Assembly: GCF_023217965.1 (NCBI RefSeq)
Contig: NZ_JALPSC010000002.1
Span: forward strand, 1,116,001 to 1,180,000
Direction of reading: 5' to 3'
Length of the DNA: 64,000 bases
Source of the DNA: Prevotella sp. E13-27
Lineage (GTDB): Bacteria; Bacteroidota; Bacteroidia; Bacteroidales; Bacteroidaceae
Shown: positions 28,813 through 64,000 of the stretch, piece by piece
Layout: each line of letters begins with the position of its first letter
Numbering within the stretch: position 1 is the stretch's first letter
The notes under the pieces: generated by a model
The model's database searches: none
The model's input: only the letters and a program-made list of their open reading frames with translations
What the model was told of the DNA's origin: nothing
Made by a program: the position numbers and the translations under genes

Positions 28813-28870
28813 GTGAAGAGTGAAAAGTGAAGAGTGAAGAATCGGCTTCGCCGGTTTAAGTAAAATGAAG
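28811..28870 (+). repeat. GTGAAGAGTGAA simple repeat spanning the next start codon
   Basis: Copies of AGTGAAGAGTGAA fill the 52-nt gap and continue as ATGAAGAGTGAA, which is the start codon and first codons of the next gene. It contains the 19-mer shared with 19214-19232 and a small hairpin CGGC-TTC-GCCG. Confidence 0.7.
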
Positions 28871-30139: not shown

Positions 30140-30162
30140 GAATTTATAATTGAGAATTGACG

Positions 30163-33100
30163 ATGAGACGATATATTACCATAATGTTAATTGTACTCCT
30201 GAGCACGATTGTAGCGCAGGGGCAGATTAGGATTGGCGGTAATGTGTATGGCGGTGGCAACCAGGCAATGGTGAAAGGCTCTACGAGCGTTACGGTGAAG
30301 GCTGGCGACATCGGCGCTGTACTTGACGCGCAGGCAACACGACCGCTTACTGACCCTAAGGGCAGAGTGTTTGGCGGTGCCCGTATGGCAAATGTGGGTG
30401 GAAACGCATTTGTGAACATTGATGGTAAGAACGCTACCGACTATATCCTTATTAATCAGGTATATGGCGGCAATGATATATCAGGACGCATTGGTACTGG
30501 AACTGTTCCCACGTTGCTGGAAGCTGTGCTGAAAGGTGCTGAGACCAAGGAGACCTATCCGAATAAGAACGCTATAGATAACACCTTCAACAGCTTTGTG
30601 CGCATCAGCACTAAGGTATTGATGGATAACGGAGACACAGTTAAATATTCTCAAGAAGAGGTAGATTTAGCTTCTACCGACCTTGATAATGCTGCTTACG
30701 GCAAGACACCTGGTGTAGATGCGAAGCCCGATCCTACAGCCAAGAAGATTTATATCGGACAGCTCTTCGGTGGCGGTAACGGTGACTTTAAATATCTGGA
30801 TGAAAATGGAGACTCGCTAAGAGATAATGATGACTATGTCGTCAAGGAAGGTGACAGCATCATTGCAAGGAGTAAAGTTCCTTTCGTACTGCCCGAACTG
30901 AACAAGACATATCTTGAAATCAATGGTGGCTCTATTGTTTATGGCTATGGCGGCGGTAATAATGCCACGGTGAAGGAGGAAACGGTAATCCACTTCAACA
31001 ACCCCAGTGCGGTGGTGAACCATATCTGGACCATTGCTGCTGGTGTGGAGGTTGCCGAAGGCACGACAGGTGCCATCGACCTGCTCACTAACGCCCGCTT
31101 CAAGGAGATGGGTATCAACACCACCTTCTCGCAACCCAGCAGTGGTGCCTATCAGGTAGGCCGCTTCTTTGGTGGTAACAACAAGGCTGAGATGCACATC
31201 CGTCCGACGTGGAACCTGCTGGCAGGTAAGGTGCGTAACCTCTATAGCGGTGGTAACCGTGGTGCTATGACCTCTCCGACGGGTCTGCTGCTTGAAATCA
31301 AGGACTACTCCAGCCTTATCGTTGATAACCTGTATGGCGGTTGCCGTATGGCAGACGTGAAGCCAACGGTGAACGGCGAATATTCGCCTTGTACGAACCT
31401 GCCAGGCTATAACTTCCCCAACGAACTGTCGGCACGTACGCTGGTACGTGGTGGATATGTGCATAATGTCTATGGCGGTAACGACGTGACGGGTACCGTC
31501 TATGGCGGTAATGCCGTAGGTATCTATACCAACGTCTATGGTAATGTGTATGGTGGTGGTAACGGTGCCTACCCATATACTGACTTGATCAGTGAGGACA
31601 ATGAAACGTATGGTGAGACCTATGGAGATTTCCATTACAACGTTACTACGGGAAGATCAGTAGATGCACTGAATGCGTTCCGTCCGAATGCTGAGCAGGT
31701 GTCTATCCGATTGAAGGGTAAAGCTGCCAACGATCAAACCATCATCCACGGTTCTGTCTTCGTCGGTGGTAACTGTGCATCGCTGCATGTCAAGAAGAAG
31801 AATCCGTTGATAGAACTGAAGATGGGTTCACACGTCGTTGTTGATAATGTATATCTCGGCAACAATGGTGAGGGTATGATAGACACCGCATTCCTGAATA
31901 GATATGCCGATGATAACTACTCGACACTGAATTTGACTAATGCTGCGACCTTCGCTGAGTATATGGAAGGTGTCGCCATGACTCAACAGCCTCGCATCGT
32001 GTTTGACAACGTTGCCAACGGTGACCCTGATAACTATGTCGATTTCTCCAGTTACGTAGGTTCCTTCTTCTGTGGCGGTAACGTAGGTAGTATGGCTATT
32101 CCTGGCAAGATGAGCATAACCATCGACAAAGGCCTGAATATCTATAATAAGTTCGTGGGTGGCTGTAACAATGCCGATATTACTGCTCAAGAAGGTCTGA
32201 ATGCTTTCTACGAAGGCGGTATCATAGGCTCTAAAGATGAACGTGGAGATATTGTTGAAAATACAAACTATTATACCGACGACGGAACGGAATCAGGCAA
32301 TATCAAAGACCGTCTGGAGATTAATTTCCAGAACATGGTTATCATGCCTCTGCGATGGAATGAGACATTTGAAAATGTATTTACTAAGAATGGTAACGTT
32401 GCTACTAAACTTACGGCAGGAAAGGAATATTATCATACGGATTTGCGCTCAACCAAGTTCGTTGCTGATGGTACGGAGACGGCAGATGCAACTCACACAT
32501 ACTATGAGCTGACGAAAATTGGTAATGCCCTTGAGTGGAATACGGCAAAATGGTCTATTCCGGAAGATAACTTCATCAGAGTAGCAAACGGTTCTTCTGT
32601 GGATGAAGACACCCGTCTGATAGAAGGTAATGTCTATGGTGGTTGTTACAACAGTGGTCACGTCAACGGTAACATCGTCCTCAATATTAACGAAGATGTA
32701 TTGAAGAGGGAAGATATCTTCGGTACGGGAACGAGCGAATTGTTTGGTCATGAGAAATCTCATGTGAAATTCGATGACCAGCGCGACGACGTGATGGCTG
32801 TAGCCCTGTCAGTGTTCAGTGCCGGACATGGTGAGAAGACAGAGGTATGGGGTAGCACTACTGCAAACCTCAACAAGGGCTACACCTTACAGATATTCGG
32901 AGGTGGCGAGCAGGGTGTTGTCGGTAAGAGACTGCATGCCGAAAATGGTACACCTATTGTGGATGGTGAGGGCAACTATAGTTATGAGTTCGACCCGAGA
33001 TATAGCACCACGGTAAACCTGAAAGGTATTACAACGGTAAACTCTAAAGATGAAAAAGTAGAGAATCTGGCAGAAGCAGAATATCTGTATGGTGGTGGTA

Positions 33101-42732: not shown

Positions 42733-42804
42733 AAATAGTGCCCAGCGGTTCACCCGTTGAGATATAAAGAAGAAAACAAAATTAAAACAACATATAAAAA
42801 AGAT

Positions 42805-42975
42805 ATGACACAAGATATGACCGAAACGTTATTGAGTGAAAGAGATATAAACAGCAAAATAGCACAGGGGGTTAGCCTCGGTGCACTAAGGGAGAAGACA
42901 GCCTCTACCCATACTCTACCCATACTCATTGAGTATGCCTGGAGTATGCCTAGAGTATGGCTAGAAGCAGCCTAG
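42805..42975 (+). CDS. Possible 56-aa leader reading frame (doubtful)
   Basis: An ATG-started frame, MTQDMTETLLSERDINSK..., runs into the 11-bp repeat array and stops within its fourth unit. It has no signal peptide and no recognised domain. It could be a translated leader whose length depends on the repeat number, because 11 is not a multiple of 3. It may equally be non-coding. Confidence 0.2.
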   Translation: MTQDMTETLLSERDINSKIAQGVSLGALREKTASTHTLPILIEYAWSMPRVWLEAA

Positions 42976-43018
42976 AGTATGGCTAGAGTATGGCTGGAGT
43001 ATGCCTAGAGTATGAATT
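42931..43018 (+). repeat. 11-bp tandem repeat (eight units) before giant gene 2
   Basis: Eight consecutive 11-base units of the form GAGTATGSCTR: 42931, 42942, 42953, 42964 (degenerate GAAGCAGCCTA), 42975, 42986, 42997 and 43008 (partly degenerate). The array ends 25 nt before the ATG at 43044. Two inverted copies just upstream can pair with it as a hairpin. Confidence 0.88.
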
Positions 43019-43043
43019 GAACGATTAAACAAGATATATAGAT

Positions 43044-49000: not shown

Positions 49001-52000
49001 GGTGACAGAGACTGCATTCTTACGTACCACACAGTTTGAATATGATGGATTTCAAAGCTACACAGATAAGCGTATAGAAGATAAATCTCCTATGATTATC
49101 AATGGCGGTGAGTATGAAATGTTCAATTTCAGATACCATGACTCCAATCGTACCCTCTATTTCCTTTTAGGTGGAAAAGCATGGGTTCACCGTTTCGCCC
49201 CTGGTGCCCATCCAAGTACGAATACTTCTCCAAAAGCTTATTTTTGCGCTGTAAATGCTATCGGTGGTGAGTATCCGGAGTTTTATCTTTCAGGTATTTA
49301 TCGTCCAGACATTGCTGCCCCTCAAAATCAGGGTGCACCGCATTGCTATACCAATGGTGGTAAGTTTGGCACTATGGCAGGTGCTGGCTATGACAAGGTG
49401 GCCGGTGGTGTCACATTCCAGATTAATCACTCGCTGATTAACGAATTCTATGGTGGCGGTATTAATGGTTCCAATCCTATAGGCGGTAATATTGATGTGA
49501 CCATAGACTATAGCCGCGTAACAAAATACTGCGGTGGTCCGAAGGTGGGTAATATGCCTGGTAAGACGGTTACGACCAATGCTACAGGTACAACCTTTGG
49601 CGTGTTCTATGGTGCTGGTAATGGTGGTAACAGTTATTATAGGGAATTAATTAAAGATGGTGACCAGAACTCCAGTAATATAAGTAGCTGGGATGGCCAA
49701 TATGGTTGGGGGAATTTCAATCCGCTGAAAACTACTTACGATGACTCAAAAGTAAACAGAGGTTACCATGCCGAATATGAGTTTGAAGTGTTCAACCATT
49801 CTAATGGTGTTACTGACCAAATTACCCAACGCAGTTTCATTCATTGGATACAGTTTGGTATTACAACCACAGGTGATGTGACGAGTAACCTAACCAATTG
49901 TACTGTTAATACCAACTTCTATGGTGGTGGTAACTTGGCCAGTGTGACGGGTAATGTGAGATCTACACTGACCAATACAACCATTGTCGGCAATGCTTTT
50001 GGTGGTGGTTTCTCGGCTGCCATTCCAAAATTTAGCGTTCATGATAAGAACAATAAGACGTTCCCATCTATGGACTTCGCTGGTACGATTACCGATGGTA
50101 GTATTGAGTATATAAAGGATGATGGAAAGGTTATTGTTTACGAATGGACCAATGACTTGAATGGAATGTCAGAGGCAAATCGTAAGAAGGATCCTGCTTA
50201 CAAGAAAGACGGCAAGTGGTATTGTTATACATGGAACCCGTTGGTGAACCTCGGTGCTGTAACTGGTAATGTCACCTTGAATATTGAAGGAAACACCTTG
50301 GTGCAAGGTAATATCTATGACGAAGAAGGTGAGGTCATAGACCATGCCGGTGTGTTTGGTGGTGGTGATGCTTCTAAGGTGATAGGTAACACCCAGGTGA
50401 CTATTAATGCCTCAGGACAAAAGACGGAAGGTATTAATACCTATAATGTCTATGGTGGTGGTAATACAGCCGACGTAGAGGGTAATACAAATGTAACGCT
50501 GTCTCATGGTAAGATTAGCCAGGATATCTTCGGTGGTGGTAAGGGTGCATCAACGACGGTAACGGGTGACGTGAACGTAACTATAGGAGCAAAATCCACT
50601 GATCCTACTCCTGCCTATACTGGTACTGGTACAGCACGTAATATCTATGGCGGTAGTGCCCTCGGTGCTGTGAATGCAACGAAGGGAGAAGGTGATGTAT
50701 TATCGGTAACTCCTGAAAAGACGACAACGGTCAATGTCTATGCCGGTACCGTTAATAATGTCTTCGGTGGTGGTTTGGGACTTGATGATGAGGAGGATGA
50801 TACAAAGGACATCACTGCCCAGAATTTTGGTAATACGACTGTTGTTATTGAAAACAGTGACAATAGCAAAGTCAAGGTCAGTGAAGCAGTCTATGGCGGT
50901 GCCAACGTGAATGGTGTGCTGAAGGCAAATGCCGAGGTGACATTGCTTGGCGGAATGATAGGAGATTCCGAAGATACGAGTAAAGATGTTGTCTTCGGTG
51001 GCGGTAAAGGTATTCCTACACTGGTGAATGGTAGTGTATTGGTGAATGTAGGTAATTCCACCCATACTGGTGATGTCAATATCTACGGTAACGTCTATGG
51101 CGGTTCCGCATTGGGTCATACAAGTGCTACGAGTAATGCGGATTTCAATACCAGCGCGACTACGAATGTAAACCTCTATGCCGGTACGATTAATGGTTAT
51201 GTATTCGGTGGCGGCCTGGGTCGTAAGGCAGCAGCAGCTGTAGGCACAGAAGGGCAAGAAGGATATATTGCTCCTGTAACAGCTGTTGAATCATTCGTTG
51301 GTGGCGACGTAAATGTGCTTCTTGATGGTGCGAAGGTGCATCAGATCTTTGGCTGTAACAACCTGAACGGTACGCCAAAGGGCCATGTGAAGGTGCATGT
51401 GAAGCAGACAAATAACTTCGATGGTAATAACGATTATAAGAATAATAGCGAAACAGCACTCGACGCTCGTACCACATACGATGTGGAAGCCGTCTATGGC
51501 GGTGGTAATAAGGCAGACTATAACCCGACAAAGGCTACTGGTTCTGACGCTGACAAGAAACAGGCCTTTGCTGAAGTTCTGATTGAAGGTTGTGATAAGA
51601 CCAGTATTGAATATGTCTATGGCGGTGGTAATGCTGCTGCCGTGCCAGCAGACTCTATTACGATCCATAGTGCATACATCATTGGTTATCTGTTTGGTGG
51701 TGGTAATGGTGCTGGCGCTGACAACCCAGGAGCTGATGTGGGTGTCATTGATAAAGTTGCGTATGCGGCCAACAATTCAAACGGTATCTATGGTACTGGT
51801 GTCGCAAAAACGAAGTTGATAGGTGGTCAGGTTCGTTACGTATATGGTGGTAGTAATACCAAGGGTAACGTGCGTGGTGGAACATCGTTGGAGAGAAAAG
51901 AATCTAATACTCATTGTGCATTGAAGATCAAGGAAATCTATGGTGCCGGTCAGTTGGCTCCAATGGATGGCGATGTCATCATCAAGCTGGACTGTATGCC

Positions 52001-55000
52001 TGAAGATTTCGTTTCTCAGGTGTTCGGTGGTGCCAAGAATGCTACTATCAACGGTAATGTCTCCCTGACAGTTTCCAGCGGTAAGTTCGGACGTGTCTTT
52101 GGTGGTAACAACTGGGGTGGTAGCATCAATGGCTCTATCGAGGTAAATGCTTATGAGGATGGATGTAAGCCTTTGATTATCGGCGAGCTCTATGGTGGCG
52201 GTTTCAATGCCCCCTACTCTATCTGGGGTTGTAATGATAGTGATAATGATGGAAAATGGACACCCAATACTCCGGCAGGCGATCCACATGTTGCAGCTGA
52301 TGCTGATGCTATTTCGGTGAATGTATATTCTTGTACTTCTATCGGTAAGGTCTTTGGTGGCGGCTTTGGTGCTACTGCCAATGTGGTTGGTAACACCCAC
52401 GTCTGGATCAACACCATTCAGGGTATTGTTGACGGAGAAATGCAGACCTATGGTGAAGGTGTGTACATCGGCAAGATAGGTCAAGTCTTTGGCGGTGGCA
52501 ATGCTGCTCCAGTGAAAGGCAATGTTACCATTGATATCGGTACGGCAACGGTTAGCAAAATACCTTCCACAGGTGAGGATGCAGAAAAGATAGGTATCAG
52601 AATCATCAATGGTACCGACTATCTCAAGACGACAACGGATGCTGATACTACAATTACTGCCGGTATCTATGGCGGTGGTAATGCAGCCGACGTAGATGGC
52701 AACGTTACGATGAATATCGGTACGGTTAGTCAGAACCAGGGCATCAACATTGGTGGCGATATCTATGGCGGTGGCTATGGTGAGACGACCCATGTTACTG
52801 GCAATGTTGTCGTGAACATTGGTAAAAAGACAGAAACTACTGTTGATGAGACTACGACTTACGGTTACGAGGGTTATGCAATAATCACTGGTGATGTCTA
52901 TGGCGGTAGTGCCAAGGGTAAGGTGAATACTACCGATGGAAGTTCAATTATTGATGGTTCTCCAACCACTCAGGTAAACTTCTATGGCGGTACTATACAA
53001 GATACAGAGACTCCAAGTGGTAAAGGTAACATTTACGGTGGTGGCCTCGGTGAAGATAACGAAGGAACAGAGACTGATCACGCAGCAGACGTCTATGGTC
53101 CTGTCACTGTGACATTGGAAAAGGGTAGCACGACCAATACTGTTGTTAACAACGTATTTGGCTGTAACAATGTACTGGGTACTCCAAAGAATACAGTAAC
53201 GGTCAATATCAATGGCGGTACTGTTAACCATAGTGTCTATGGCGGTGGTAACCAGGCTGCCTATACCCCGAGTGAGAGCCAGAATTATCCTGCAGTAAAC
53301 GTTATCAATGGTACAGTCACAGAAAATGTCTTTGGCGGTGGTCTCGGTCTGACGGCAACAGTTACAGGCAATCCACAAGTAACGATTGGTGACAATGTAG
53401 AAGGTCATACGGTTACTATTCTGGAGTCTGTCTATGGCGGTGGCTCATTGGCAGGTGTGAATGGCAATACCAATATCGTTGTCAACAGCGGTATCATAGG
53501 AACTGAAGGTGAGGGTGGCGCTACTTATGGCAATATCTATGGCGGTGGTTTCGGTACAATGAGCACCAGTGAGATGACTGAAGCTCAAGCTGTCAAGGAA
53601 GCCGGTATCGTTAAGGGTAACACTACCATTACTGTCAATGGCGGTAATGTTCTCCATAATGTATATGGTGGTGGTGCCTACGGTTCGGTAGGTACCTATA
53701 CCTATGATGCTTCTAACGTCATTACCGGCTACACCTCTGGTGGTGTCGCTACTATTAACATTCTGGGTGGTACCATTGGTACTGACGGTCATGAGAATGG
53801 TATGATCTTCGGTGCCTCACGAGGTGATGTGGGAGTTACTGGTTCTATCCACGACAAGTTGGCATGGGTATATGATACTAATGTAACCATAGGTGATAAC
53901 GACGAAGAGACTCCTGATCCTCAGGTCAACGGTTCGCTCTATGGTAGTGGTGAGAACGGACATACCTACCGTAATGCCGCTGTAACCATCCATAGCGGTA
54001 AGATAGGTATTACCGATACCAGCATTGACGGTGGTGCGGCTTATGCTTATCGCGGCAATGTCTATGGCGGTGGTTGTGGTACGGATAAGTATGACTCTGA
54101 CGATGATAGTACTCTGGATGCTTACAACTCAAAGGCTGGTATCGTTGGCGGTAATGCTACGGTAACCATCGATGGTGGTCATGTGGTTCGAAACGTCTAT
54201 GGCGGTGGAGCTATGGGTTCTGTAACTGGTGGAACAACTGTAAACATCAGTGGCAATACTGAAATCGGTTATACAGGCATGCCGGGTGGTTATGTCTATG
54301 CTGCTTCTCGTGGTAATAATGATATGGAAGCTGGCTATGCCACTGCAGGTAGCACCGCGTTGAACATCAGCGGTGGTACTATCTGGCGTAGTGCTTTCGG
54401 TGGCGGACAGTTAGGCTCCGTCAAGGGAGATGTTGCTGTCTCTGTCAGCGGTGGTGTCGTTCATGAAGATGTCTATGGCGGTGGCGCCTTGGCAAATACC
54501 AATACGGATAACTGGACAGGTGATGATGGTACTCCATCGTATGTTGCAGTTGCTGGCCTTGCCACAGAAACCTACAGAGTAAAGGAAATGGCTATCGGCG
54601 CTTCTGTCACAGGACTCTATACATACGATAGTGATACGTCAACTTACGTAGCGGCTACCGGTACAGCTCAAGAAGGTATCGTCTATTACGAAAAACTTTC
54701 TGGTGCACCTGTGGCTGGATATTATACGAAGTCGGGAGACGTTTATACCAGAATAACAAACAGTACTGCTACAGCTGATGGCTCAACGACTTACTATAAG
54801 AAGATGGTTAAAGGTTCTTGGGTTGTGACTCCTCCTGTAGATGGTACAAGTTATTATACTACAACGGTCAGCCTGACAGGTGGACTTATTGGTAATGCCT
54901 ATGGTGGAGGTTTGGGTAATTCAACTAAGGCGGCTAACGTCTATGGTGATGTTACCGTAACGGTTAATCAGGGTGTTGAAGACGAGACAAAGGGTGTAGC

Positions 55001-58000
55001 CTTCATCCAACAGATGGAGACGGCTACCATCGGAGGAACCCCTTATCCGACACCTGTGCCAGTATCTGGTCGTGTCTTTGGTGGTAACAACCACAATGGT
55101 ACGCCTACGGGTAACATAACGGTTCATGTCTATTCCACCCGACAGTTGGATAAAGACGACAACATCCTTCCAGGTCACGGTTCTCCTGACAGAAAATATT
55201 CTTATGATATACAGTCTGTTTATGGCGGTGGTAACCAGGCTGATTACCTGCCTGCTGACGGCAAGAAGAGTCATGTGATTATCGATGGTTGTAATGAAAC
55301 CAGCATTGAGAAGGTCTATGGCGGTGGTAACTCTGCCGTTGTGCCTGAAACAGATGTGCTGATTAACGGTGCATACGATATCGGTTATGCCTTTGGCGGT
55401 GGTAATGGTGACAAGCCCATCAAGTTGGACGACGGCACTTGGCGTGAGAACCAAGGTGCCATCGTCATCGGTTTGGCTTCAATCGTCTGTAAAGGCGGTA
55501 AAATCGGTCAGGTCTTCGGTGGCGGTGATGCCAAGGGTAGTTGTGGTAATACGAATGCCGTAACCAAACAAGATAGTGACTGTCCATTGCACATTACCAG
55601 ACTTTATGGAGCGGGCAACAAGGGTGATGTAAGTTCTGTAAACATTGTCCTAGCAGCCTGTTCAGAAAATGCGATAGACTATGTCCATGGTGGTTCCTAT
55701 AATGCCCATGTCCACGGTGATGTGCATCTGACCATTACCAGTGGTGTCCTAAAGAATGTGTATGGCGGTAACGATGCACGTGGTGGTATCGAAGGTAATA
55801 TCATCGTGGATATTGAAGAGACGAATGGTTGTAAACCTATCATCATCCAGAACCTCGTAGGTGGTGGTAATGAAGCACCTTATCCAGGTACCAAAACGAA
55901 CGATAAAGGTGATGAGGTTCCAATAGGAACACATGGTAAAATTACTGTAAACGTTAAATCTGCTACCCGTATAGATAATATATATGGAGGTAGTTATATG
56001 GCAGAGGCCAATGCCGACACTGAGGTGAACATCAACATGATAAAAGGTTGTAAGGCAGGCCAGGACGTGACGATTCCACAGGAGTTCAGCTATATACCTA
56101 ATATTTCTGGCAAGAGTGCTCCGTCTGATGGCGTCATCGCATGTACTATTAATAATGCTATCGGTACTATCGGCAATGTGTATGGTGGCGGTAATTTGGG
56201 CTTGGTCAATGGAAAGACCACAGTAAACATTGGGGTATCTGATCATGTGGAAATCATGGCACGTGATGCTAATGGTAAGATCCTTGATGTAGAGAACAAC
56301 CCGTTGGATGTTGAAGATGGTAAGAATATCACAGCAACAATTAAATACGATAGTATAACAGATGCAACATCCCATCTCGGTGTCAATATCACGGGTAGCG
56401 TGTATGGCGGTGGTAGAGAAGCGGATGTCACTGGCAATACCTATGTGAATATCTGTGCTAAGGAGAGTGCTACGCCAGGCACTTACGAAGCTGTTGCAGA
56501 AGGTTCTGATAAGGTTACCATTGCCGGTAATGTCTATGGTGGCGGTAAGGGTATTGCCAACTCCTTCACGTGCGAGAAAGCCATGGTGGGAATTGTTGAC
56601 GACGGAGCAACAGTTACAGGCGAAGATGAATCTGCAACATATACTCTAAAAGAGGGTGGTACGACTGTTACCATAGGTCATGGTACTGTGGGAACGCTTG
56701 AGGCAGGAAAACTCGTAGAGGGTACGGGTAATGTCTATGGCGGTGGTGAGATAGGCCGTGTAGAGAGAAATACAAAGGTAACCATCGGAATCGGTAACGG
56801 AACTGGAGAAACTGCATCACCTGTTATTGAAGGTGAGGTGTTTGGTGCCGGTCAGGGCGTTGCTACACATGGTTACTCAGGCTTGGTACGTGGCAACAGT
56901 ACAGTCACCGTCCAGGGTGATAGTTGGGTAAAACAGAGTGTCTATGGTGCTGGTAAGCTGGCTTCATTAGGACGTTACTGGATTGCCACAACATCAGCAG
57001 ATGCTACTGCGCATAATGTAGAAATAGGTATGCCTTGGGGTTTGAAGTGTGGTGGACAAAGTACTGTCACTATCCAAGGTCATGCTAAGATAGGCCCTGA
57101 GGCACCGATGGCGATGCCTACCTTCGATGGAAATGTCTTCGGTGCAGGTAAGGGCGCTCTCCCATACGATGTCACTGGTGAACCAGGGCGTTATTATATG
57201 AATGGCGGCAAATATACTTGGGAAAGTTATGCCGACGAAAGTAAAGAGGGTGATTACCTGAAATATGTGGAAACATTAGGTGTCACCAACAATTCCATTG
57301 TTACCATTGGTGGTGACGCTTTCGTAATGGGTTCTGTCTATGGCGGTAGTATGAATGGCTCTGTCTTCGATGGTACAGTGGTTAATATCGCTGGTGGACA
57401 GATTGGTCGCAGTAAAGTGAATCCACTTCCTGATGGAGTCTGGGGGGCGAACTATACTCCAACGTCTGATTTGGAGTGCCCAAGCTGGCCGTATGCTAGC
57501 CCTCATGCTCCATACGATAAATATGCAAATTCGAGTGGTAAGTATCCAGATGGGTCGTCTGCTGATGAGGGCCGGCCTGAGGCTGAGGCTTCCGATGGTC
57601 ACACCTTCTACGGTAACGTATTTGGCGGCGGCTCAGGTAAGGATCCTTATAAGCCAGGTAAGTGGCATCGTAAGGCTGGTTACGTAGGTGGTAATACTGA
57701 AGTAAATATCACTGGCGGTCACATCCTGACTTCTGTCTATGGCGGTAACGAGTTGACTGATGTCGGTTCAGGAGAAGATTTGAAGGTTGTATCAGGCAAG
57801 GGTAAGTGTACCATCAATATGACGGGCGGTACGCTTGGTGTGCCTCGTACAGAAGCACAGATAGCTGCTCACCCAGTAACCTGTTATCTCTTCGGTGCCG
57901 GTAAGGGTGACCAACGTATTTTCTTCAATAAGTGGACGAATGTAAGTGAAACAGAAGTAAACGTTACTGGTACTGCCCGCATCTACGGCTCAGTCTTCGG

Positions 58001-61000
58001 TGGCGGTGAGGATGGTCACGTGCTGGGTGATGTTACAATGAATATAGGTAATGTGACTATTGGTTCTACACCATATACTGGCAATGATGTTAAGATTGGT
58101 ACAAGGGGTATTTCTTACGTAGATGGTAACGTCTTCGGCGGTGGTCGTGGTTTCAGTGGTGAAGCTCTGACTGCTGGTGCTGTTGTAGGAAATGTGACAA
58201 TGAATATTTCTAACGGTACGATGTTGGGCTCTATCTATGGTGGTGGTCGTTTGGCTTCTGTGGGAACGAAGCTGGAAGATGTTACTGATGGAGAAGGTAA
58301 TCCTAATCCTAAATATGGTCTGATATCTGATGATACGGACACTGAGGAATTTGGTCATATCGCTATTACTATCAGTGGTGGTACTATTGGTAACGGAACA
58401 ACCGAGGTAGGAACAACTCACTCTGTAAGCGGTAATGTCTTTGGTGGTTCTATGGGACGTATCACATTGCTTGATGGTACACGTAATTCGGTATGGCCTA
58501 AATTGGCTGTGGCTAAACTGACAAACGTTACCATTAGCGATGGCACTATCTACAACAGCGTCTATGGCGGTAGTGAGTATGGTGTCGTACGTAATCGTGC
58601 TACTGTGAATGTTGAAGGTGGTACCATCCATGGTAACGTCTTTGGCGGTGGATATGGTAGTGGTGAACAAGATAAACAGACTATAGAAGTTGCTGGTTAT
58701 GCGGATACTTACTATACTTTCACTCCATTGATATGGACTGGCTGTGTGTCAGGTGATACATTCGTTAATATCTCCGGTGGCTCTATTAAAAAGAATGTAT
58801 ATGGTGGTGGTAACTTCGCTTCTGTAGGTCTCATAGACTTCGTAAGCGATAAAGACGGAAAATTTACCAATATGCCAAAGCACGATAATCTGTTGAACGG
58901 CTTCGGTTTGAGTTGGCCATATAAGTTCAACTATCACTCTGCAGCTCCGAAAGATGCTTCTGCAGTTGGCGGTGGTGAGCTTGGCGGTAAGGCAACAGTA
59001 ACTATCACTGGTGGGCTCATCGGTACTGCGACTGGTGACGGTACTGGCAATGTCTTTGGAGGTAGTAAGGGAGAAGTTGACTTTGATGGAGTTGCGGAAA
59101 CCAATATTGACGATCAGCGCTATACAGAGGCCATGGCTGCCAATGTTCGTGAGACAGAGGTGAATATCAATTATACCTCTTCAGATGCATCCAATCAGAT
59201 TCTTGGTGCTGTCTATGGCGGCGGTCAGGATGGTCACGTCTATGAAGATGCTAAAGTAAGAATTACAGGAGGCTTAATAGGCCTGAGCGTCTATGGCGGC
59301 GGTGAAGGTAATGGCACCTATAATACAACGTTGTTAGATCTAAGCACTGGCAGTCGTAAGGGAAGCCCAGACAATATTCATAGTTGGACAGCTGGTAAGG
59401 TTTATGGTAACACTTCGGTAAGCATGAGTGGCGGTCAGGTTAATGGTCATGTCTATGGTGGTGGTAACCTTGCCTCCGTTGGTAAGGGTAACTATGCTGG
59501 TGGTAATGATGACTACTATCCTGCCGGTTACGGTGAGACACTCACAGGTAACTTGTGGACCAGTGCCACTGTGGGCGATGGTTATACCGCCGCCCAGCGT
59601 GACAATGCTTGGCACTTCTTGAATAGCGGTAAAGCTACTGTTGTCATAGCTGGTGGTTCAGTAGGTACAGCGAATGGTACATCTGGTAGCGTGTATGGCA
59701 CTACCGATGCTACACCTACAGGTATGATTTTTGGCGGTAGCCGTGGCCGTGCAGCACAGAATGTCGCAGATGTTGCAAAACTTACGACACTCTATAAGTA
59801 TGTACCTGACTTCTATCTCGGTTACGTCAACAAAGCCGAGGTAATTATTGGTGGCGGTCATGTCTGCATTAAAAAATGTGAGGCTGCTGGTAATACGTAC
59901 AAGCCTGGCGACTTCCTGTCAGATGCTGACTTTACAACAATATTCGGTGGTTCAAATGAAAATTGGAAGGCAGGTAGTGCTCCAACCATCTATAGCCAAG
60001 TCTTTGGTGGTGGTCGTGACGGACACGTGCGTAACAGTGCTCACGTCATAATAAACGATGGCACCATCGGTCAACCATATAGTGACTTTGATGATACTGA
60101 TGCTGGCAATTACCAGCGTTATCATCGTGGTAATGTTTATGGCTCTGGTTCTGGTTTGGGTCAGTGGACTTCTGGAAAGCATGGTATGGCTTCCGGTTCT
60201 GTGACCCGCAACACAACCGTTGATATCAATGGTGGTACTATATATAATAATGTATATGGTGGCGGAGCCTTGTCATCTGTCGGTCCTCCAAAACTGGATT
60301 CGGAGAAGGACTATGCTGCTTCTACATGGTCAAAGTGCGTTGTCAACATCAATGGTGGTACTATCGGACAAGCTACACCTTATGAAACTCATAAGTACGG
60401 CGGCTGTGTCTATGGTGCCAGCCGTGGTAACGATTTCGCAGAAGGTGAGTCTGAAGAGAACTTTGCTACCGTTCTGTGGACTAAGGTGAACATTAACGGT
60501 GGTAGCATTGCCGGCAACGTCTATGGTGGTGCCAAAGGTGGTCTCGTTTGGAAAGATACTGAGGTACACCTGCAGGGCGGTACGATTGCTCACAATGCTT
60601 ATGGTGGCGGTCAGGGTACATCGACCATTGCTGCCAACATCGGTGGCAACACTACGGTGAAGCTGAATGAAGGCAAGGATAAAGACGATTCTGGATGTAT
60701 GGTTGAAAGGATATTCGGTTGTAACGACTTGAACGGTACACCGAAGGGACATGCCTTAGTACACGTTTATGCTACGCAGCACAAAGGCAAGGCAAAGATT
60801 GTTCCTGATGGCGGTAAGTATGTGAAGTTCAATAATATTGATGGTTATTCAATAGACAATTATGATGGACTCGTTACGCTGGCAACAAGTTATAGCCTGA
60901 ATGTGACTTCTTACACGAGTGTCCTCAGTAATTCAGGAAGCACAAAAGAAGCAAAGCAAACTGCACTTCAAAATATGAAGGATGTTGTCTTACGTGCAGA

Positions 61001-64000
61001 ATTGGAATACTTCGCTTCATCAAGTATGTTGAATATAGCATCGGAAATAGCTTCTTATAAGGCGATTCTTGATAGTGGCACTTCTACTGCAGAGGAAAAA
61101 GCGGAAGCCTTGCAGGGTATGGAGAATGTCGTACGAAATGCGAAATATGATGTCGTAGCTGTCTATGGCGGTGGTGATTTGGCAAAGTACGAGCCTACAG
61201 ATCCTACACCAGAAACTCCGTTGAATGATACGGAGGAATATGCCAAAGTCATCATCGATGGTTGTGACCTCACAAGTATCAGACAGGTATATGGTGGTGG
61301 TAATGCTGCTTCTGCACCAGCTACTGATGTTAGAATAAATGAGGCCTACGAAATCCATGAGGCATTCGGTGGTGGTAATGGTAGGGATAATTACCAGTTA
61401 GATGGTAAGTGGTATGAGAACCCAGGTGCTAACGTGGGATACTATGCAACATACCATCATAGTGGTGGCGAAGGATCGTCAGCAACCCCTTATCAGGCTG
61501 TGGAAAATGATGGTTCAGATGGTTATAAGGATGCAAAAACCAAGGAGGCACGTATAGCGAACTACTCTTATGGTGCTGGTTATACAAATCTTGTAATTAC
61601 TGGTGGTCGCATTCACAAGGCCTATGGCGGTAGTAACATACGAGGAAATATTCGTTATTCAGTTAATTCTGCATACGAGGAGTCTGGTTCATGTCCTATG
61701 CTTATTGACGAGACGTATGGAGGTGGTAATGAGGCTGAAACAGATGGCGATATACATACCAAAATGGAATGTGTAGATTATATGTCAAATTATTACGGTG
61801 GATCTGAAAAAGGTGACGTGAACAGTGACATAGTACTCGAAATTACCAATGGTACGTTTGGTAATGTGTATGGTGGTAATAATAAAATTGGTAGAATTCT
61901 TGGTTCTATTACCATCAATGTACATGAAGAAGGTTGTAAGCCAATTATTATAGATAATTTGTACGCTTGTGGCGATGTGGCACAATACTCTATATATGGC
62001 TACTCAGGTTCAACTCATGAAACTGTACGTACGAAGGCTGAATGGGAAGCATTGTCTGACGAAGCTAAGGCTGCTTCACCTATCAGGAAGGATCCTCGTG
62101 TCAATATTATCTCAGCGACGAGAATCAACAATGTCTATGGCGGTGGAGACCATGCTCGTGTAATCGGTAGCCCACATATCAACGTCAATATGGAGGAAGG
62201 TACCTTGTTGGCTAAATATATAAAACAATATCCAGCATATTTGACTACTGACCAAACAGACACACGTATTAGTGGCACTACCGTTACGTGGCGTTGTCGT
62301 GAGGGAGAAGCAGTTGGAACTGATGGCCACATGGGTATTCTCCCTGTTGGTACTATAGGTAATATCTTCGGTGGTGGAAACTACGCTGATGTTGAAGGTA
62401 ATACGTACGTTGAAATCGGTACTGGTAAGCATCATAATGGTGAAGGTGAGGAAGTGGTAATCACTCCTGCTCGTAATGCAGCGTACATCACTGGTCGTGT
62501 CTATGGTGGCGGTAACTTAGGTGATGTGACCGGTAATACTATTGTTGAAATGTGCAACGGCTATGTAGCTGACCGTATCTACGGTGGTGGTAAGGAAGGC
62601 AATGTGGGAACTGTTACCTCGACATCTAAGCATACTGGCGCCAAAGCTCACGAGGGCTGTATCGGTAAGCCATCCGCCTTTGCTGCCAATACCGGTAAGT
62701 GTACTGTCACCGTAAGTGGTGGACGTGTAGGACCATATACCTATAGTTATGGCAGCGATGTGATAGCAAAAGCAACACCTAATGCAATGGCTATGCCTGA
62801 GGACTTCGGTTATGTATTCGGTGCTGGTCGAGGTGAGTTGACGAATCCTGCTACTGATCCAGATATTGACTTCAGAACCTACGTCAAAGAAACGGAGGTC
62901 ATCATCAAGAATACCTATGAGGAGTCATTTGAAGGCGATTCCCTTGATCATATCGTCAAGTCACCTTTGATTGCCGGAGGTGTTTATGGTGGTTCTGAGA
63001 ACGGACGTGTACTCAACAATACCCATGTGAACATCTGGGGTGGCCAGATTGGTATTGGTGCTGGCATGTCAGAGGCATTTAATGAAGGTTCTCGTACATC
63101 GGAAGCGTACGCTGAAAGCGATTTCATCAATCCGACGACGGCTACGGCAGAGCAGATTACAGCAAAGGCTGCACTGATGCCTGAGTGTGCCGCATGGACG
63201 TATGGAAGTCCATGGTTGCCATACGATGAAAATGCAGGCAATGGTTATTATAAAACGGACACTTATGGCGCTGCCAGCACTACTGGTTCTGACGGTCATA
63301 CGTTCTATGGCAACGTCTTTGGTGGTGGCTCTGGTTACTTTGCCTATGCAAAGGGCGATGGCACTTACGAGTGGCTGCCGTCTGCCGGTCTGGTAGAGGG
63401 CGACACCTACGTGAACATCAGCGGTGGTCATATCCTGACGAACGTATATGGCGGTAACGAGCTGACAAATGTCACCGGTACTGCTCACGTCACGATGACG
63501 GGCGGTACGCTTGGTGTGCCTCGTACGCTGGCACAGATAGCTGCCCACCCCGTAACCTGCTACCTCTTCGGTGGCGGTAAGGGCGACCAGCGTGTACACT
63601 TCAACATGAGCACCAACGTAGGCCATGCTGTCGTAAACGTCTCTGGCGGTATCATCTACGGCTCCGTCTTCGGTGGCGGTGAGGATGGTCACGTCTTAGG
63701 CAACGTGACGATGAACATCGGTACGGCGGCAGTGGGAACCGAGGGACAGGAAGGCTACGTTGCAGCTGCCGGGCCAACCATCGGCACATGGGGCACCAGC
63801 TACGTCGAGGGTAACGTCTTCGGCGGTGGCCGTGGCTTCGCAGGCGATGCGCTGACTGCCGGCGTGGTGTGCGGCAATGTCGATATGAACATCAAGGGCG
63901 GCAACATGCTCGGCTCCATCTATGGTGGTGGCCGACTGGGTTCCATCGGTACCCATCTGGAGCCGTCTGACAATGCCAACTATGGCAAGCTGATACCTGA
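43044..64000 (+). CDS. Giant YGGG-repeat surface protein 2 (at least 6,985 codons, 3' end beyond window)
   Basis: A single frame stays open from ATG 43044 to the window edge. The signal peptide is near residues 15-38 (ending TSAWAQ). A beta-trefoil/ricin-lectin-like N-terminal region (about 39-270, e.g. LWIVKKTGNFYHVIHAATGK) is followed by a chitobiase C-terminal-like segment (IYYTLDGNTPTTSSSSY, about 373-405), mixed beta regions, and a GLUG-like part (NPFIGTIDGK ... GGIVGYIGET, about 1396-1526). From about residue 2135 to the edge it is almost wholly YGGG repeats with nested super-repeats. The N-terminus suggests carbohydrate binding at the tip of a long solenoid. No catalytic motif was recognised. 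The C-terminus is unseen, so a type IX sorting domain is predicted but not shown. Confidence 0.85.
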   Translation, partial: MTRIMNVNGKFTDIYSYVKNILFLTVLLTVGVTSAWAQTDCSGIYYIVNDNSGGANSGSTETTAYSNATDAIRWYLVPAGNPQEKAKYMDAYYSPNHNTTQGDSNKPFLTTYQNNKDKAAVPEGMTVPDNNSLWIVKKTGNFYHVIHAATGKYVIYEVPLPNDPNKNNDATEGNNGKRKTMHLQTPDDGTYSLSTNENFKFTISRSGSENNYIYLIEPQSRPGWYWNPANGNRDSYSGIENGKKIYQAGLVGVYNVATDGGSKWRFESAPIAASTISINTAGYPTVTVTNTNTWLPSGYHYRYTFGDGTQDDPTADSPILEGGSYTVTTSGTLKVVIEQHGVVLSEVASQEVGPAKPTFTVNANGSVTISATGSIYYTLDGNTPTTSSSSYSSSISASDIASAEGTAIKAIVVDASGVISQVAELPLATYTYKIVNRSYKVAAIKAKKQAEGTPLSDYNNIPAEIRSEYLNGENVYFRSFAGSEGIGDAVTQETLSGYNVIHQTPQGNANIYVTYDTDHLGEKTPRLQGARPFNIKYGSTYLYDEGGTLKTDGASESNEVNHVWYFTGGDPYAVTVQNGATSSKLTYQSAAFGYNGTVKTFIIKNTTSVDATHTNLTLWYLDGENIREVEVTINTVVLQRSYTLIDRKGEVIQANIAYVDDDGFGLPTAWRSPVASYHYWNANAFVDANNDGNPDVPYVLKSGESTPTEITSVTQVTSNNTIYVTYDVDHSKLDLDGRNSLGLSAELKPNNLTYMLRFLTPDTEAYKFYQEDGKDGVMPTKRRAVYPYSNGDAQLYVYGTDKWNEDLEKGASTRTRWLWYIEPANSPASKDQLDPYHVKISSYQTQTSYKIDDDNTRNFHSYLKTYAVSYGSPETTHIVTGVTNNNPKVMNPSAADSAPADNSDATEYMILGTSAGMKLVTTKGIDGAPTNGVYGTRQTVHNFEQYWKTYETVSKKGTKNYEPPVNNTDFTGKGIDLHRYQVWANARPINTLSPTSQNNKVFEKEYHWFQTIEMGENFIFEPTEIKPMLILLDQHGWEIVRLPLPTGNPKELNAEQQTKRAQAYANLHKFSSPMVERYHYWKTGSKIPGYHKFKVSDYATKSDGSEYTSDELGSADITNPSTPPNLPDYETQALVSGKERDWYVTYDVKTEYASKYAGADTYEGTSASDYLVKYGNDYATYAGTGTTLGTVSSLPETITDNMKWKLRPNFNIDREMSYLYAGETDAESEAKSKDNTEADYCDSTREGWVSTWSNGFDPYNVQIQNVGSDTRYLTANTSSPTVGSTWTGSTSKLSVEEQSERLHVASLDQNNVHITNATFMVVDDGSGNMILMPRFDHDHVVNTFSGSSHFVDAGSSSQHLTIEVVPTMISSSSEIKAMGGSYILKENFSCSSSVGTADNPFIGTIDGKLRTMGTFSAPLLGYAKDATIKNIILKDVRISGTGSTGAICGTADGKTRIYNCGILPKYPTFKDETSEISSTTGYCGSIAGELKFNARVINCFSYATITGGTTVGGIVGYIGETKITQVNVDTVPMVMNCMFYGEITGGSTKYPVYGGATIENDESNNKGVNPYNYFRKGATFDDSYNSISNYNRSWPAEEKNLTRFEYYRSVLNSNKNLVTYWITDKAYSNQTDDDHALMAKWVLDPSIAPYPILKKWGYYPSVINLDTEYRINPETKAKEQRSGANEWEGKSYGTLTVNIDAGTNYSGSTSRNITITDMDTLNCDYGYYKIQLPYYNKVFGNPNGATHAAKYANNYTDKVVTGWKITSVTGGTSGTFTKNWETGYNFADRNCTSKDLYATSGRVFAQGGYYYVPVGVTAINIEAYWGDAVYLANRGHSIDRVSLTSAGYKSDVAFAPAGTMPNTFQGQTVYNDLQNAIKALKESTACPTVYDQAIVLIGNHQVKNGSNDIGYNLDSKWHPFTFMSADFDFDCEPDYCLEWQFRHQTPRQGIQPIRFDFLPIVELGLAVRHDKKAYAIGIFVPQGHFEVTETAFLRTTQFEYDGFQSYTDKRIEDKSPMIINGGEYEMFNFRYHDSNRTLYFLLGGKAWVHRFAPGAHPSTNTSPKAYFCAVNAIGGEYPEFYLSGIYRPDIAAPQNQGAPHCYTNGGKFGTMAGAGYDKVAGGVTFQINHSLINEFYGGGINGSNPIGGNIDVTIDYSRVTKYCGGPKVGNMPGKTVTTNATGTTFGVFYGAGNGGNSYYRELIKDGDQNSSNISSWDGQYGWGNFNPLKTTYDDSKVNRGYHAEYEFEVFNHSNGVTDQITQRSFIHWIQFGITTTGDVTSNLTNCTVNTNFYGGGNLASVTGNVRSTLTNTTIVGNAFGGGFSAAIPKFSVHDKNNKTFPSMDFAGTITDGSIEYIKDDGKVIVYEWTNDLNGMSEANRKKDPAYKKDGKWYCYTWNPLVNLGAVTGNVTLNIEGNTLVQGNIYDEEGEVIDHAGVFGGGDASKVIGNTQVTINASGQKTEGINTYNVYGGGNTADVEGNTNVTLSHGKISQDIFGGGKGASTTVTGDVNVTIGAKSTDPTPAYTGTGTARNIYGGSALGAVNATKGEGDVLSVTPEKTTTVNVYAGTVNNVFGGGLGLDDEEDDTKDITAQNFGNTTVVIENSDNSKVKVSEAVYGGANVNGVLKANAEVTLLGGMIGDSEDTSKDVVFGGGKGIPTLVNGSVLVNVGNSTHTGDVNIYGNVYGGSALGHTSATSNADFNTSATTNVNLYAGTINGYVFGGGLGRKAAAAVGTEGQEGYIAPVTAVESFVGGDVNVLLDGAKVHQIFGCNNLNGTPKGHVKVHVKQTNNFDGNNDYKNNSETALDARTTYDVEAVYGGGNKADYNPTKATGSDADKKQAFAEVLIEGCDKTSIEYVYGGGNAAAVPADSITIHSAYIIGYLFGGGNGAGADNPGADVGVIDKVAYAANNSNGIYGTGVAKTKLIGGQVRYVYGGSNTKGNVRGGTSLERKESNTHCALKIKEIYGAGQLAPMDGDVIIKLDCMPEDFVSQVFGGAKNATINGNVSLTVSSGKFGRVFGGNNWGGSINGSIEVNAYEDGCKPLIIGELYGGGFNAPYSIWGCNDSDNDGKWTPNTPAGDPHVAADADAISVNVYSCTSIGKVFGGGFGATANVVGNTHVWINTIQGIVDGEMQTYGEGVYIGKIGQVFGGGNAAPVKGNVTIDIGTATVSKIPSTGEDAEKIGIRIINGTDYLKTTTDADTTITAGIYGGGNAADVDGNVTMNIGTVSQNQGINIGGDIYGGGYGETTHVTGNVVVNIGKKTETTVDETTTYGYEGYAIITGDVYGGSAKGKVNTTDGSSIIDGSPTTQVNFYGGTIQDTETPSGKGNIYGGGLGEDNEGTETDHAADVYGPVTVTLEKGSTTNTVVNNVFGCNNVLGTPKNTVTVNINGGTVNHSVYGGGNQAAYTPSESQNYPAVNVINGTVTENVFGGGLGLTATVTGNPQVTIGDNVEGHTVTILESVYGGGSLAGVNGNTNIVVNSGIIGTEGEGGATYGNIYGGGFGTMSTSEMTEAQAVKEAGIVKGNTTITVNGGNVLHNVYGGGAYGSVGTYTYDASNVITGYTSGGVATINILGGTIGTDGHENGMIFGASRGDVGVTGSIHDKLAWVYDTNVTIGDNDEETPDPQVNGSLYGSGENGHTYRNAAVTIHSGKIGITDTSIDGGAAYAYRGNVYGGGCGTDKYDSDDDSTLDAYNSKAGIVGGNATVTIDGGHVVRNVYGGGAMGSVTGGTTVNISGNTEIGYTGMPGGYVYAASRGNNDMEAGYATAGSTALNISGGTIWRSAFGGGQLGSVKGDVAVSVSGGVVHEDVYGGGALANTNTDNWTGDDGTPSYVAVAGLATETYRVKEMAIGASVTGLYTYDSDTSTYVAATGTAQEGIVYYEKLSGAPVAGYYTKSGDVYTRITNSTATADGSTTYYKKMVKGSWVVTPPVDGTSYYTTTVSLTGGLIGNAYGGGLGNSTKAANVYGDVTVTVNQGVEDETKGVAFIQQMETATIGGTPYPTPVPVSGRVFGGNNHNGTPTGNITVHVYSTRQLDKDDNILPGHGSPDRKYSYDIQSVYGGGNQADYLPADGKKSHVIIDGCNETSIEKVYGGGNSAVVPETDVLINGAYDIGYAFGGGNGDKPIKLDDGTWRENQGAIVIGLASIVCKGGKIGQVFGGGDAKGSCGNTNAVTKQDSDCPLHITRLYGAGNKGDVSSVNIVLAACSENAIDYVHGGSYNAHVHGDVHLTITSGVLKNVYGGNDARGGIEGNIIVDIEETNGCKPIIIQNLVGGGNEAPYPGTKTNDKGDEVPIGTHGKITVNVKSATRIDNIYGGSYMAEANADTEVNINMIKGCKAGQDVTIPQEFSYIPNISGKSAPSDGVIACTINNAIGTIGNVYGGGNLGLVNGKTTVNIGVSDHVEIMARDANGKILDVENNPLDVEDGKNITATIKYDSITDATSHLGVNITGSVYGGGREADVTGNTYVNICAKESATPGTYEAVAEGSDKVTIAGNVYGGGKGIANSFTCEKAMVGIVDDGATVTGEDESATYTLKEGGTTVTIGHGTVGTLEAGKLVEGTGNVYGGGEIGRVERNTKVTIGIGNGTGETASPVIEGEVFGAGQGVATHGYSGLVRGNSTVTVQGDSWVKQSVYGAGKLASLGRYWIATTSADATAHNVEIGMPWGLKCGGQSTVTIQGHAKIGPEAPMAMPTFDGNVFGAGKGALPYDVTGEPGRYYMNGGKYTWESYADESKEGDYLKYVETLGVTNNSIVTIGGDAFVMGSVYGGSMNGSVFDGTVVNIAGGQIGRSKVNPLPDGVWGANYTPTSDLECPSWPYASPHAPYDKYANSSGKYPDGSSADEGRPEAEASDGHTFYGNVFGGGSGKDPYKPGKWHRKAGYVGGNTEVNITGGHILTSVYGGNELTDVGSGEDLKVVSGKGKCTINMTGGTLGVPRTEAQIAAHPVTCYLFGAGKGDQRIFFNKWTNVSETEVNVTGTARIYGSVFGGGEDGHVLGDVTMNIGNVTIGSTPYTGNDVKIGTRGISYVDGNVFGGGRGFSGEALTAGAVVGNVTMNISNGTMLGSIYGGGRLASVGTKLEDVTDGEGNPNPKYGLISDDTDTEEFGHIAITISGGTIGNGTTEVGTTHSVSGNVFGGSMGRITLLDGTRNSVWPKLAVAKLTNVTISDGTIYNSVYGGSEYGVVRNRATVNVEGGTIHGNVFGGGYGSGEQDKQTIEVAGYADTYYTFTPLIWTGCVSGDTFVNISGGSIKKNVYGGGNFASVGLIDFVSDKDGKFTNMPKHDNLLNGFGLSWPYKFNYHSAAPKDASAVGGGELGGKATVTITGGLIGTATGDGTGNVFGGSKGEVDFDGVAETNIDDQRYTEAMAANVRETEVNINYTSSDASNQILGAVYGGGQDGHVYEDAKVRITGGLIGLSVYGGGEGNGTYNTTLLDLSTGSRKGSPDNIHSWTAGKVYGNTSVSMSGGQVNGHVYGGGNLASVGKGNYAGGNDDYYPAGYGETLTGNLWTSATVGDGYTAAQRDNAWHFLNSGKATVVIAGGSVGTANGTSGSVYGTTDATPTGMIFGGSRGRAAQNVADVAKLTTLYKYVPDFYLGYVNKAEVIIGGGHVCIKKCEAAGNTYKPGDFLSDADFTTIFGGSNENWKAGSAPTIYSQVFGGGRDGHVRNSAHVIINDGTIGQPYSDFDDTDAGNYQRYHRGNVYGSGSGLGQWTSGKHGMASGSVTRNTTVDINGGTIYNNVYGGGALSSVGPPKLDSEKDYAASTWSKCVVNINGGTIGQATPYETHKYGGCVYGASRGNDFAEGESEENFATVLWTKVNINGGSIAGNVYGGAKGGLVWKDTEVHLQGGTIAHNAYGGGQGTSTIAANIGGNTTVKLNEGKDKDDSGCMVERIFGCNDLNGTPKGHALVHVYATQHKGKAKIVPDGGKYVKFNNIDGYSIDNYDGLVTLATSYSLNVTSYTSVLSNSGSTKEAKQTALQNMKDVVLRAELEYFASSSMLNIASEIASYKAILDSGTSTAEEKAEALQGMENVVRNAKYDVVAVYGGGDLAKYEPTDPTPETPLNDTEEYAKVIIDGCDLTSIRQVYGGGNAASAPATDVRINEAYEIHEAFGGGNGRDNYQLDGKWYENPGANVGYYATYHHSGGEGSSATPYQAVENDGSDGYKDAKTKEARIANYSYGAGYTNLVITGGRIHKAYGGSNIRGNIRYSVNSAYEESGSCPMLIDETYGGGNEAETDGDIHTKMECVDYMSNYYGGSEKGDVNSDIVLEITNGTFGNVYGGNNKIGRILGSITINVHEEGCKPIIIDNLYACGDVAQYSIYGYSGSTHETVRTKAEWEALSDEAKAASPIRKDPRVNIISATRINNVYGGGDHARVIGSPHINVNMEEGTLLAKYIKQYPAYLTTDQTDTRISGTTVTWRCREGEAVGTDGHMGILPVGTIGNIFGGGNYADVEGNTYVEIGTGKHHNGEGEEVVITPARNAAYITGRVYGGGNLGDVTGNTIVEMCNGYVADRIYGGGKEGNVGTVTSTSKHTGAKAHEGCIGKPSAFAANTGKCTVTVSGGRVGPYTYSYGSDVIAKATPNAMAMPEDFGYVFGAGRGELTNPATDPDIDFRTYVKETEVIIKNTYEESFEGDSLDHIVKSPLIAGGVYGGSENGRVLNNTHVNIWGGQIGIGAGMSEAFNEGSRTSEAYAESDFINPTTATAEQITAKAALMPECAAWTYGSPWLPYDENAGNGYYKTDTYGAASTTGSDGHTFYGNVFGGGSGYFAYAKGDGTYEWLPSAGLVEGDTYVNISGGHILTNVYGGNELTNVTGTAHVTMTGGTLGVPRTLAQIAAHPVTCYLFGGGKGDQRVHFNMSTNVGHAVVNVSGGIIYGSVFGGGEDGHVLGNVTMNIGTAAVGTEGQEGYVAAAGPTIGTWGTSYVEGNVFGGGRGFAGDALTAGVVCGNVDMNIKGGNMLGSIYGGGRLGSIGTHLEPSDNANYGKLIP
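51341..52230 (+). repeat. Super-repeat block A, copy 1, in giant gene 2
   Basis: The encoded order is (V/I)FGCNNLNGTPKGH, a YDVEAVYGGGNKA(D)Y block, EGCDKTSIEYVYGGGNAAAVP, an AY-I-x-FGGGNG block, then EDGCKPLIIGELYGGG. The same order recurs at 55072 and 60711. Confidence 0.75.
55072..55890 (+). repeat. Super-repeat block A, copy 2
   Basis: VFGGNNHNGTPTGNITVHVY, YDIQSVYGGGNQADY, DGCNETSIEKVYGGGNSAVVP, AYDIGYAFGGGNG, then NGCKPIIIQNLVGGGNEAPY: collinear with copies 1 and 3. Confidence 0.78.
57481..58260 (+). repeat. Super-repeat block B, copy 1
   Basis: It encodes SDGHTFYGNVFGGGSG, GGHILTSVYGGNELTDV, GTLGVPRTEAQIAAHPVTCY, GSVFGGGEDGHVLGDVTMNIG and GSIYGGGRLASVGT. The same blocks recur in order at 63193-63950, about 5.68 kb later. 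Confidence 0.85.
60711..62010 (+). repeat. Super-repeat block A, copy 3
   Basis: IFGCNDLNGTPKGH, YDVVAVYGGGDLAKY, DGCDLTSIRQVYGGGNAASAP, AYEIHEAFGGGNG and EEGCKPIIIDNLY. It is the longest copy, expanded by an insert around 61390-61600. Confidence 0.78.
63193..63950 (+). repeat. Super-repeat block B, copy 2
   Basis: SDGHTFYGNVFGGGSG, GGHILTNVYGGNELTNV, GTLGVPRTLAQIAAHPVTCY, GSVFGGGEDGHVLGNVTMNIG and GSIYGGGRLGSIGT, matching 57481-58260 block for block. Third-position C is more frequent here than in copy 1. Confidence 0.85.

Follow-up and report, generated by a model that had tools for sequence, protein, structure and literature searches.

The DNA analysed here, referred to as the window, is a stretch of 64,000 nucleotides from Prevotella sp. 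E13-27 (G000:C2:1116001-1180000), whose genome of 3.96 Mb is assembled in two contigs. From position 30163 onwards it encodes two very large YGGG-repeat proteins, giant 1 and giant 2, directly downstream of a run of fimbrial lipoprotein genes. The locus carries the following features.

19902..19932, + strand: match to a Bacteroidetes-type promoter, TTG-N20-TAATTTTG, from a pattern scan, 68 nt ahead of the first operon gene.
20001..21872, + strand: gene with OmpA-like and DUF3575 regions that opens the operon; OmpA (E=0.027) and DUF3575 (E=7e-12) match separate halves.
21869..23053, + strand: DUF5119-like lipoprotein; PF17145 at E=5.5e-5 and 23.5 bits, under the cut-off of 27.
23172..25394, + strand: fimbrillin-clan lipoprotein, 32% identical to the 25544-27436 product (E=2e-61); lipobox judged by eye.
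25544..27436, + strand: fimbrillin-clan lipoprotein of family A8; profile-profile match to family A7 with probability 100 and E=1.9e-38.
27556..28812, + strand: fimbrillin-like lipoprotein of family A7, with Pfam matches among relatives.
28865..30139, + strand: last lipoprotein of the fimbrial operon, a family of its own, conserved in position upstream of giant 1.
30163..42732, + strand: giant 1; signal peptide (by eye), predicted YGGG solenoid region, middle and C-terminal regions, and a type IX type A-like tail.
42733..43043, no strand: intergenic gap of 311 nt separating the two giants; tandem repeats of 11 nt occupy 42903-43014.
43044..64000 and on to C2:1183502, + strand: giant 2; a signal peptide judged by eye, PF13290 among the N-terminal domains, a long YGGG region and a final rung.

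The two adjacent giant frames described in the initial annotation are real. Giant 1 has 16 copies of the motif [VIL][YF]GG[GAS], against a mean of 0.2 and a maximum of 2 in 1,000 shuffles, and giant 2 has 80, against a mean of 0.8 and a maximum of 5. Giant 1 measures 4,189 amino acids counted from the ATG at 30163, or 4,191 from a TTG two codons earlier (30157) in the list of open reading frames (ORFs), and its YGGG motifs extend to about residue 2160. In the same list the giant 2 frame (43044-63998) is open for 6,985 amino acids up to the window edge. Its 3' end, which the earlier analysis had left to be sought beyond the window, was reached by extending the contig: a stop at L004:4502, 3.5 kb past the window, closes the protein at 8,152 amino acids. 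Because no exact DNA repeat of at least 40 nt lies within the giant 2 gene, the frame did not arise as a recent tandem array. An assembly artefact was rejected on the same ground and by the presence of frames of 7,926-8,342 amino acids in four other genomes. By eye, a hairpin with a T-run lies just after the stop. The next element (L004:4587-7169), which we take to be an insertion sequence of the IS66 type, starts 84 nt past the stop and leaves the gene uninterrupted; its inverted repeats measure 29 nt, and inspection by eye shows a target duplication of 8 bp. That this element had cut giant 2 off was considered and rejected, as the stop and hairpin come first and orthologues share the end rung.

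The link between the giants and the fimbrial genes is supported by comparison with relatives. Eight giant-1 sequences were used to scan genome collections, and the best 80 of 295 relatives were kept; upstream DNA is present in 78 of these loci and missing in two. A member of the last-lipoprotein family precedes giant 1 in 76 of the 78, as the immediate ORF in 75. The two loci without it are L091 and L104. The gap between lipoprotein and giant 1 has a median of 17 nt, does not exceed 100 nt for 71 of the 76, and reaches 1,950 nt at its widest (L088). The 23-nt gap given earlier for the window is confirmed, with the lipoprotein gene ending at 30139 and the ATG of giant 1 at 30163. The pairing extends to 11 distant loci, comprising all five order-level matches other than the own genome, from two other families, and six hand-picked strong family-level matches in other genera. 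All 11 have fimbrial-operon genes ahead of giant 1, and 10 have the last lipoprotein there. Fimbrial genes were likewise present in six of the first seven other genomes, the one without them being G008. The sets of loci and genomes behind these counts overlap in part. Both the proposed tie to a fimbrillin operon and the co-occurrence of giants with fimbrial genes in related genomes are thus borne out.

Giant 1 is conserved along its length among relatives. In a genus sample of 200 genomes, the own included, 58 match it, 53 at E below 1e-59 and five weakly, through giant-2-type frames. Matches were found in 48 of 301 genomes of a family sample, spread over 9 of 30 genera, and in 6 of 295 genomes of an order sample (own included). 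An initial sample of 60 relatives gave nine matches, counting the own genome and a weak one in G001, and none among the 24 genomes from other families. Record titles of the best 80 name a ruminant animal in 29 cases and carry the label RUG, presumably for rumen uncultured genome, in 33 more; 18 leave the source untold, and one record, Prevotella sp. tc2-28, is unmarked as metagenome or uncultured. Judging by the titles of the nearest named relatives, the host of the locus is perhaps a gut Prevotella, possibly of a ruminant.

The initial annotation treated giants and lipoproteins as a single operon, and elements that could separate them were sought. The + strand shows no terminator-like site in the interval from the last lipoprotein to giant 1. 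Two sigma-70-like matches on the + strand, at 30150 and 30157, straddle the giant-1 start, and giant 1 may have its own promoter; across the scanned region such matches are no denser than in shuffles (28 versus 25.5). The -7 motif TAnnTTTG had no match in either gap (30140-30162 and 42733-43043). Ahead of the operon, the promoter match at 19902 follows what we take to be the Bacteroidetes consensus. The pattern occurs seven times on the + strand in 98 kb, so this match is weak alone.

The N-terminal slice of giant 1 gives a confident, all-beta, solenoid-like model (predicted local distance difference test, pLDDT, 94.7). The predicted solenoid would start at the mature N-terminus, with the cleavage site judged by eye, and near this start YGGG is invariant in all 59 sequences aligned (58 of the 78 usable loci plus the window). 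The C-terminal slice of giant 2 is modelled with low confidence (pLDDT 67.5), and solenoids still top its VIA-align list. The solenoid nature claimed for both proteins is supported by prediction for the giant-1 slice and stays at low confidence for that of giant 2. VIA-align lists for the giant slices single out no one solenoid family: rows include serine-rich repeat protein, Ag43, TibA, pertactin and tapirins at identities of 4-18%, and several rows are enzymes. Profiles of the giant-1 solenoid showed no sequence relation to PDB sequences, and the giant-1 C-terminal profile gave nothing useful there. When whole giant 1 was compared with Pfam and NCBIfam, the repeats were unmatched and no characterised family covered the protein. 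Giant 2 up to the window edge matched Pfam through its N-terminal modules only, and its last 1,499 amino acids matched no NCBIfam family. In the parts scanned, the view that no characterised family spans either giant therefore stands.

The type IX-like C-terminus proposed for giant 1 is supported through orthologues, with TIGR04183 detected at E<=0.1 in 45 of 53 giant-1 tails (best 3e-9). The window tail is counted among the 45 at E=0.04, with a score of 13.9 bits where the cut-off is 23; a longer slice of it left TIGR04183 unmatched at E<=1. The secretion component SprA (TIGR04189), the sole one sought, scores above cut-off in all 12 genomes searched, among them the own, with a partial copy at a contig end in G018. 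Giant 2 ends differently. All 11 aligned giant-2 C-termini finish with a conserved rung and at most about 10 further residues, and none of the 11 contains the TIGR04183 type IX domain at E<=0.1. These 11 are the best matches to the window giant-2 tail, and two were entered a few residues short. Of the distal modules proposed for giant 2, the chitobiase-like one was recovered as PF13290 (residues 360-423; score 36.7 bits, cut-off 22). The lectin-like one was not: Pfam gave no lectin-type domain in the N-terminal part, and PDB sequence matches at the claimed region were short and mixed, among them designed beta-propellers, virginiamycin B lyase and the designed protein MITSUBA-1 (E=0.0098).

The giant-2 region varies among relatives. 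In 25 of the 28 giant-1 genomes, frames of the giant-2 type lie on the strand of giant 1, and the distance to the first such frame ranges from 4 to 7,135 nt. In the three exceptions, matches are partial at contig ends (G007 and G061) or the contig stops first (G122). The unbiased first seven genomes contain such frames in six, and the seventh has a partial match at a contig end. The description of a giant pair fits the window, where two giants are present, and does not hold strictly elsewhere: in relatives giant 2 corresponds to one to three genes, sometimes with small inserted genes. A fused giant 2 of about 8,000 amino acids occurs in G000, G222, G162, G074 and G107, and the N-terminal part and solenoid are separate genes in G022, G013, G032, G018, G091, G175 and G220; the remaining genomes show other sizes. 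The separate N-terminal proteins all map their C-termini best to residues 2454-2512 of window giant 2 (7/7). The N-termini of the separate solenoid proteins (2b) have their best match no more than about 110 residues from this junction in G018 and partly in G013, and elsewhere in the solenoid in the other five. A different arrangement in G035, G105, G191, G213 and G173 places a separate protein of 891-1,432 amino acids, with a tail resembling type A by eye, ahead of the giant-2 solenoid.

Two further observations concern this region. A gene between two giant-2-type genes of G013 (34012-34980), which we presume to be RhuM-like, ends in GGSTEVNIE, nearly as the neighbouring giants do, and similar genes occur in G032. 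In G035 (L039/L040) and G191 (L183/L184), the giant-2 genes are followed by a second run of putative lipoprotein genes of fimbrial look, and then by a protein of about 3,000 amino acids.

The three fimbrillin-type genes upstream are attributed to their clan through relatives and profile comparison, the window copies themselves scoring under Pfam cut-offs. Lipoprotein signal peptides are seen by eye in all five window lipoproteins, and a loose cysteine pattern marks many genes upstream of giant 1 across the 78 loci. Among 23 members of family A7, Mfa_like_1 matches four (best 6.3e-12), P_gingi_FimA two (best 9.4e-7), and PF08842, the Mfa2/FimB-type anchor, one (E=0.0044); the window member reaches E=0.01, below the cut-off. 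Sixteen members of A8 gave nothing in Pfam at E<=0.01. No fimbrillin Pfam family was found in 24 members of the last-lipoprotein family, whose match to A7 is confined to 35 columns. Lipoprotein profiles A6-A9 gave nothing convincing against the PDB. Six relatives of the DUF5119-like lipoprotein, located upstream of giant 1, share 59-76% identity with it. For the lipoprotein at 23172 the start was set at MKTKYFF; the mechanical ORF begins at 22986. In the OmpA/DUF3575 gene, an in-frame stop at 21246-21248 interrupts a single frame, and the intact relative G022_2 spans both halves in one frame at 49.5% identity. The fimbria copy in the window may be impaired, or the stop may reflect an error in sequencing.

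The fimbria-giant locus is bounded on both sides by direct repeats that are imperfect, with 67.7% identity, and about 650 bp long (window 19142-19763 and L004:7285-7932). None of three primase-like proteins from relatives matched these repeats.

Taken together, we consider it reasonably probable that the locus is a type V (FimA/Mfa-type) fimbria operon in which a giant beta-solenoid adhesin serves as ancillary component. As the pairing with fimbria genes is so consistent, the giants probably function within an adhesion device at the cell surface. In this proposal, a giant solenoid adhesin, accompanied by variable solenoid partners, would occupy the ancillary, type-IX-secreted position that Mfa5 has in Porphyromonas gingivalis. 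The lipoproteins would assemble the fimbria. Giant 1 would exit through the type IX system and sit at the surface, either at the fimbria tip like Mfa5 or anchored through its C-terminal end. Giant 2 would lengthen the reach and bear variable N-terminal binding modules, and the device as a whole may serve to attach the cell to particles of feed, to its neighbours or to the wall of the gut.

Several known systems resemble parts of this arrangement. Beta-solenoid adhesins such as those in the VIA-align rows share the fold class alone, by predicted structure. Giant-1 tails are like those of TIGR04183 type IX type A proteins, and the genomes checked hold SprA; giant 2 differs in this respect. SprB of Flavobacterium, a very large type-IX-dependent surface adhesin for gliding, resembles giant 1 as proposed here, but differs by a type B tail and is not known to belong to a fimbria operon. 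The Mfa1 fimbria of P. gingivalis is alike in coming from a type V operon with a gene for an ancillary protein secreted by the type IX route. The mfa1 operon encodes Mfa5, a type-IX-secreted protein of the fimbria tip with a von Willebrand domain, which runs at 120-150 kDa (PMC7835359). The claim that no comparable system had been described is therefore unsupported in that form. Compared with Mfa5 as portrayed there, giant 1 has about 4,000 amino acids, lacks a von Willebrand domain by Pfam and is followed by further giants. Among the literature matches listed, no title or abstract opening gives a description of this operon; one article on type IX secretion in rumen Prevotella treats type-IX-linked cellulases (PMC5831590).

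Some observations weigh against the proposed adhesion device. Three loci (G008, L091 and L104) carry giant 1 with no fimbrial genes upstream. A 489-amino-acid ORF lies near giant 1 in all three, which may therefore represent one lineage. In the window, the copies look imperfect, with the stop inside the OmpA/DUF3575 gene and a giant-1 tail that is shortened and scores under the TIGR04183 family cut-off. A von Willebrand domain as in Mfa5 was unseen by Pfam in giant 1 and in giant 2 to the window edge. SprA also occurs in genomes that lack giant 1 (G003, G016 and G024) and is non-discriminating, and the absence of a type IX domain in giant 2 leaves its exit route unexplained. The count of 25 in 28 genomes is biased, as 20 of the 28 were hand-picked, most of them because giant-2-type frames had already been seen on the contig. 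The distance of up to 7,135 nt to the first such frame also includes other genes. Finally, fimbria attachment of the giants, surface arrival of giant 2 and the ligands are inferences.

The exceptional loci lend themselves to a different explanation, in which the giants would build a surface coat or matrix of their own. It would be attached through the type IX C-terminus of giant 1 and share no more than its regulation with the fimbria. Type IX type A tails usually give surface anchoring, and in G008 giant 1 and a giant-2-type gene remain together with the upstream fimbrial genes missing, as they are in L091 and L104. However, shared regulation would not require the last lipoprotein gene to lie so tightly against giant 1, as it does in 76 of the 78 loci and 10 of the 11 distant ones, and we consider an independent matrix possible but unlikely.

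The architecture of the termini suggests another arrangement, compatible with a fimbria-associated adhesin. Separate solenoid giants would stack rung to rung, non-covalently, into a segmented filament of more than 10,000 residues, with giant 2 (or 2a and 2b) joining the open N-terminal rung of giant 1, the sole carrier of the exit and anchor signal. The cell-proximal segment alone would then have export and anchor signals, and variable distal segments would exchange binding heads between species. Consistent with stacking, giant 1 opens with a rung whose YGGG is invariant, giant-2 C-termini close on a conserved rung (11/11, close relatives chosen) and lack a type IX domain, and the N-terminal part of giant 2 is separate in seven genomes and fused in five, with a constant end point (7/7). 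The 2b N-termini, however, lie off the junction in five genomes and near it in G018 and partly G013, the giant-2 C-terminal model is weak, and the type A-like tails seen by eye on some separate N-terminal proteins would be at odds with giant 1 as sole anchor. This evidence is mixed, and a filament of this kind appears somewhat unlikely. That the solenoids are pectin-lyase-type enzymes and not adhesins is highly improbable: polysaccharide lyases and glycosidases do stand among the structural comparison rows, but adhesins, an antifreeze protein and curli reach equal or higher Z in the same lists, so that the fold says nothing on function, no carbohydrate-active Pfam family was found in giant 1 or in giant 2 to the window edge, and PF13290 is presumably non-catalytic.

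Research on type V fimbriae has concentrated on species of the human mouth and gut. Under the preferred reading of a fimbria operon with giant solenoid adhesins, the locus would represent a widespread type V version whose last genes encode proteins that can exceed 8,000 residues, with strong giant-1 matches in 53 of 200 sampled genomes of the genus (the own among them) and further matches in other genera and in two other families. It raises the question of the route by which an 8,000-residue protein without a type IX domain reaches the surface. As such, the fimbria-giant locus is a candidate means by which gut Prevotella may hold on to feed particles or to neighbouring cells.
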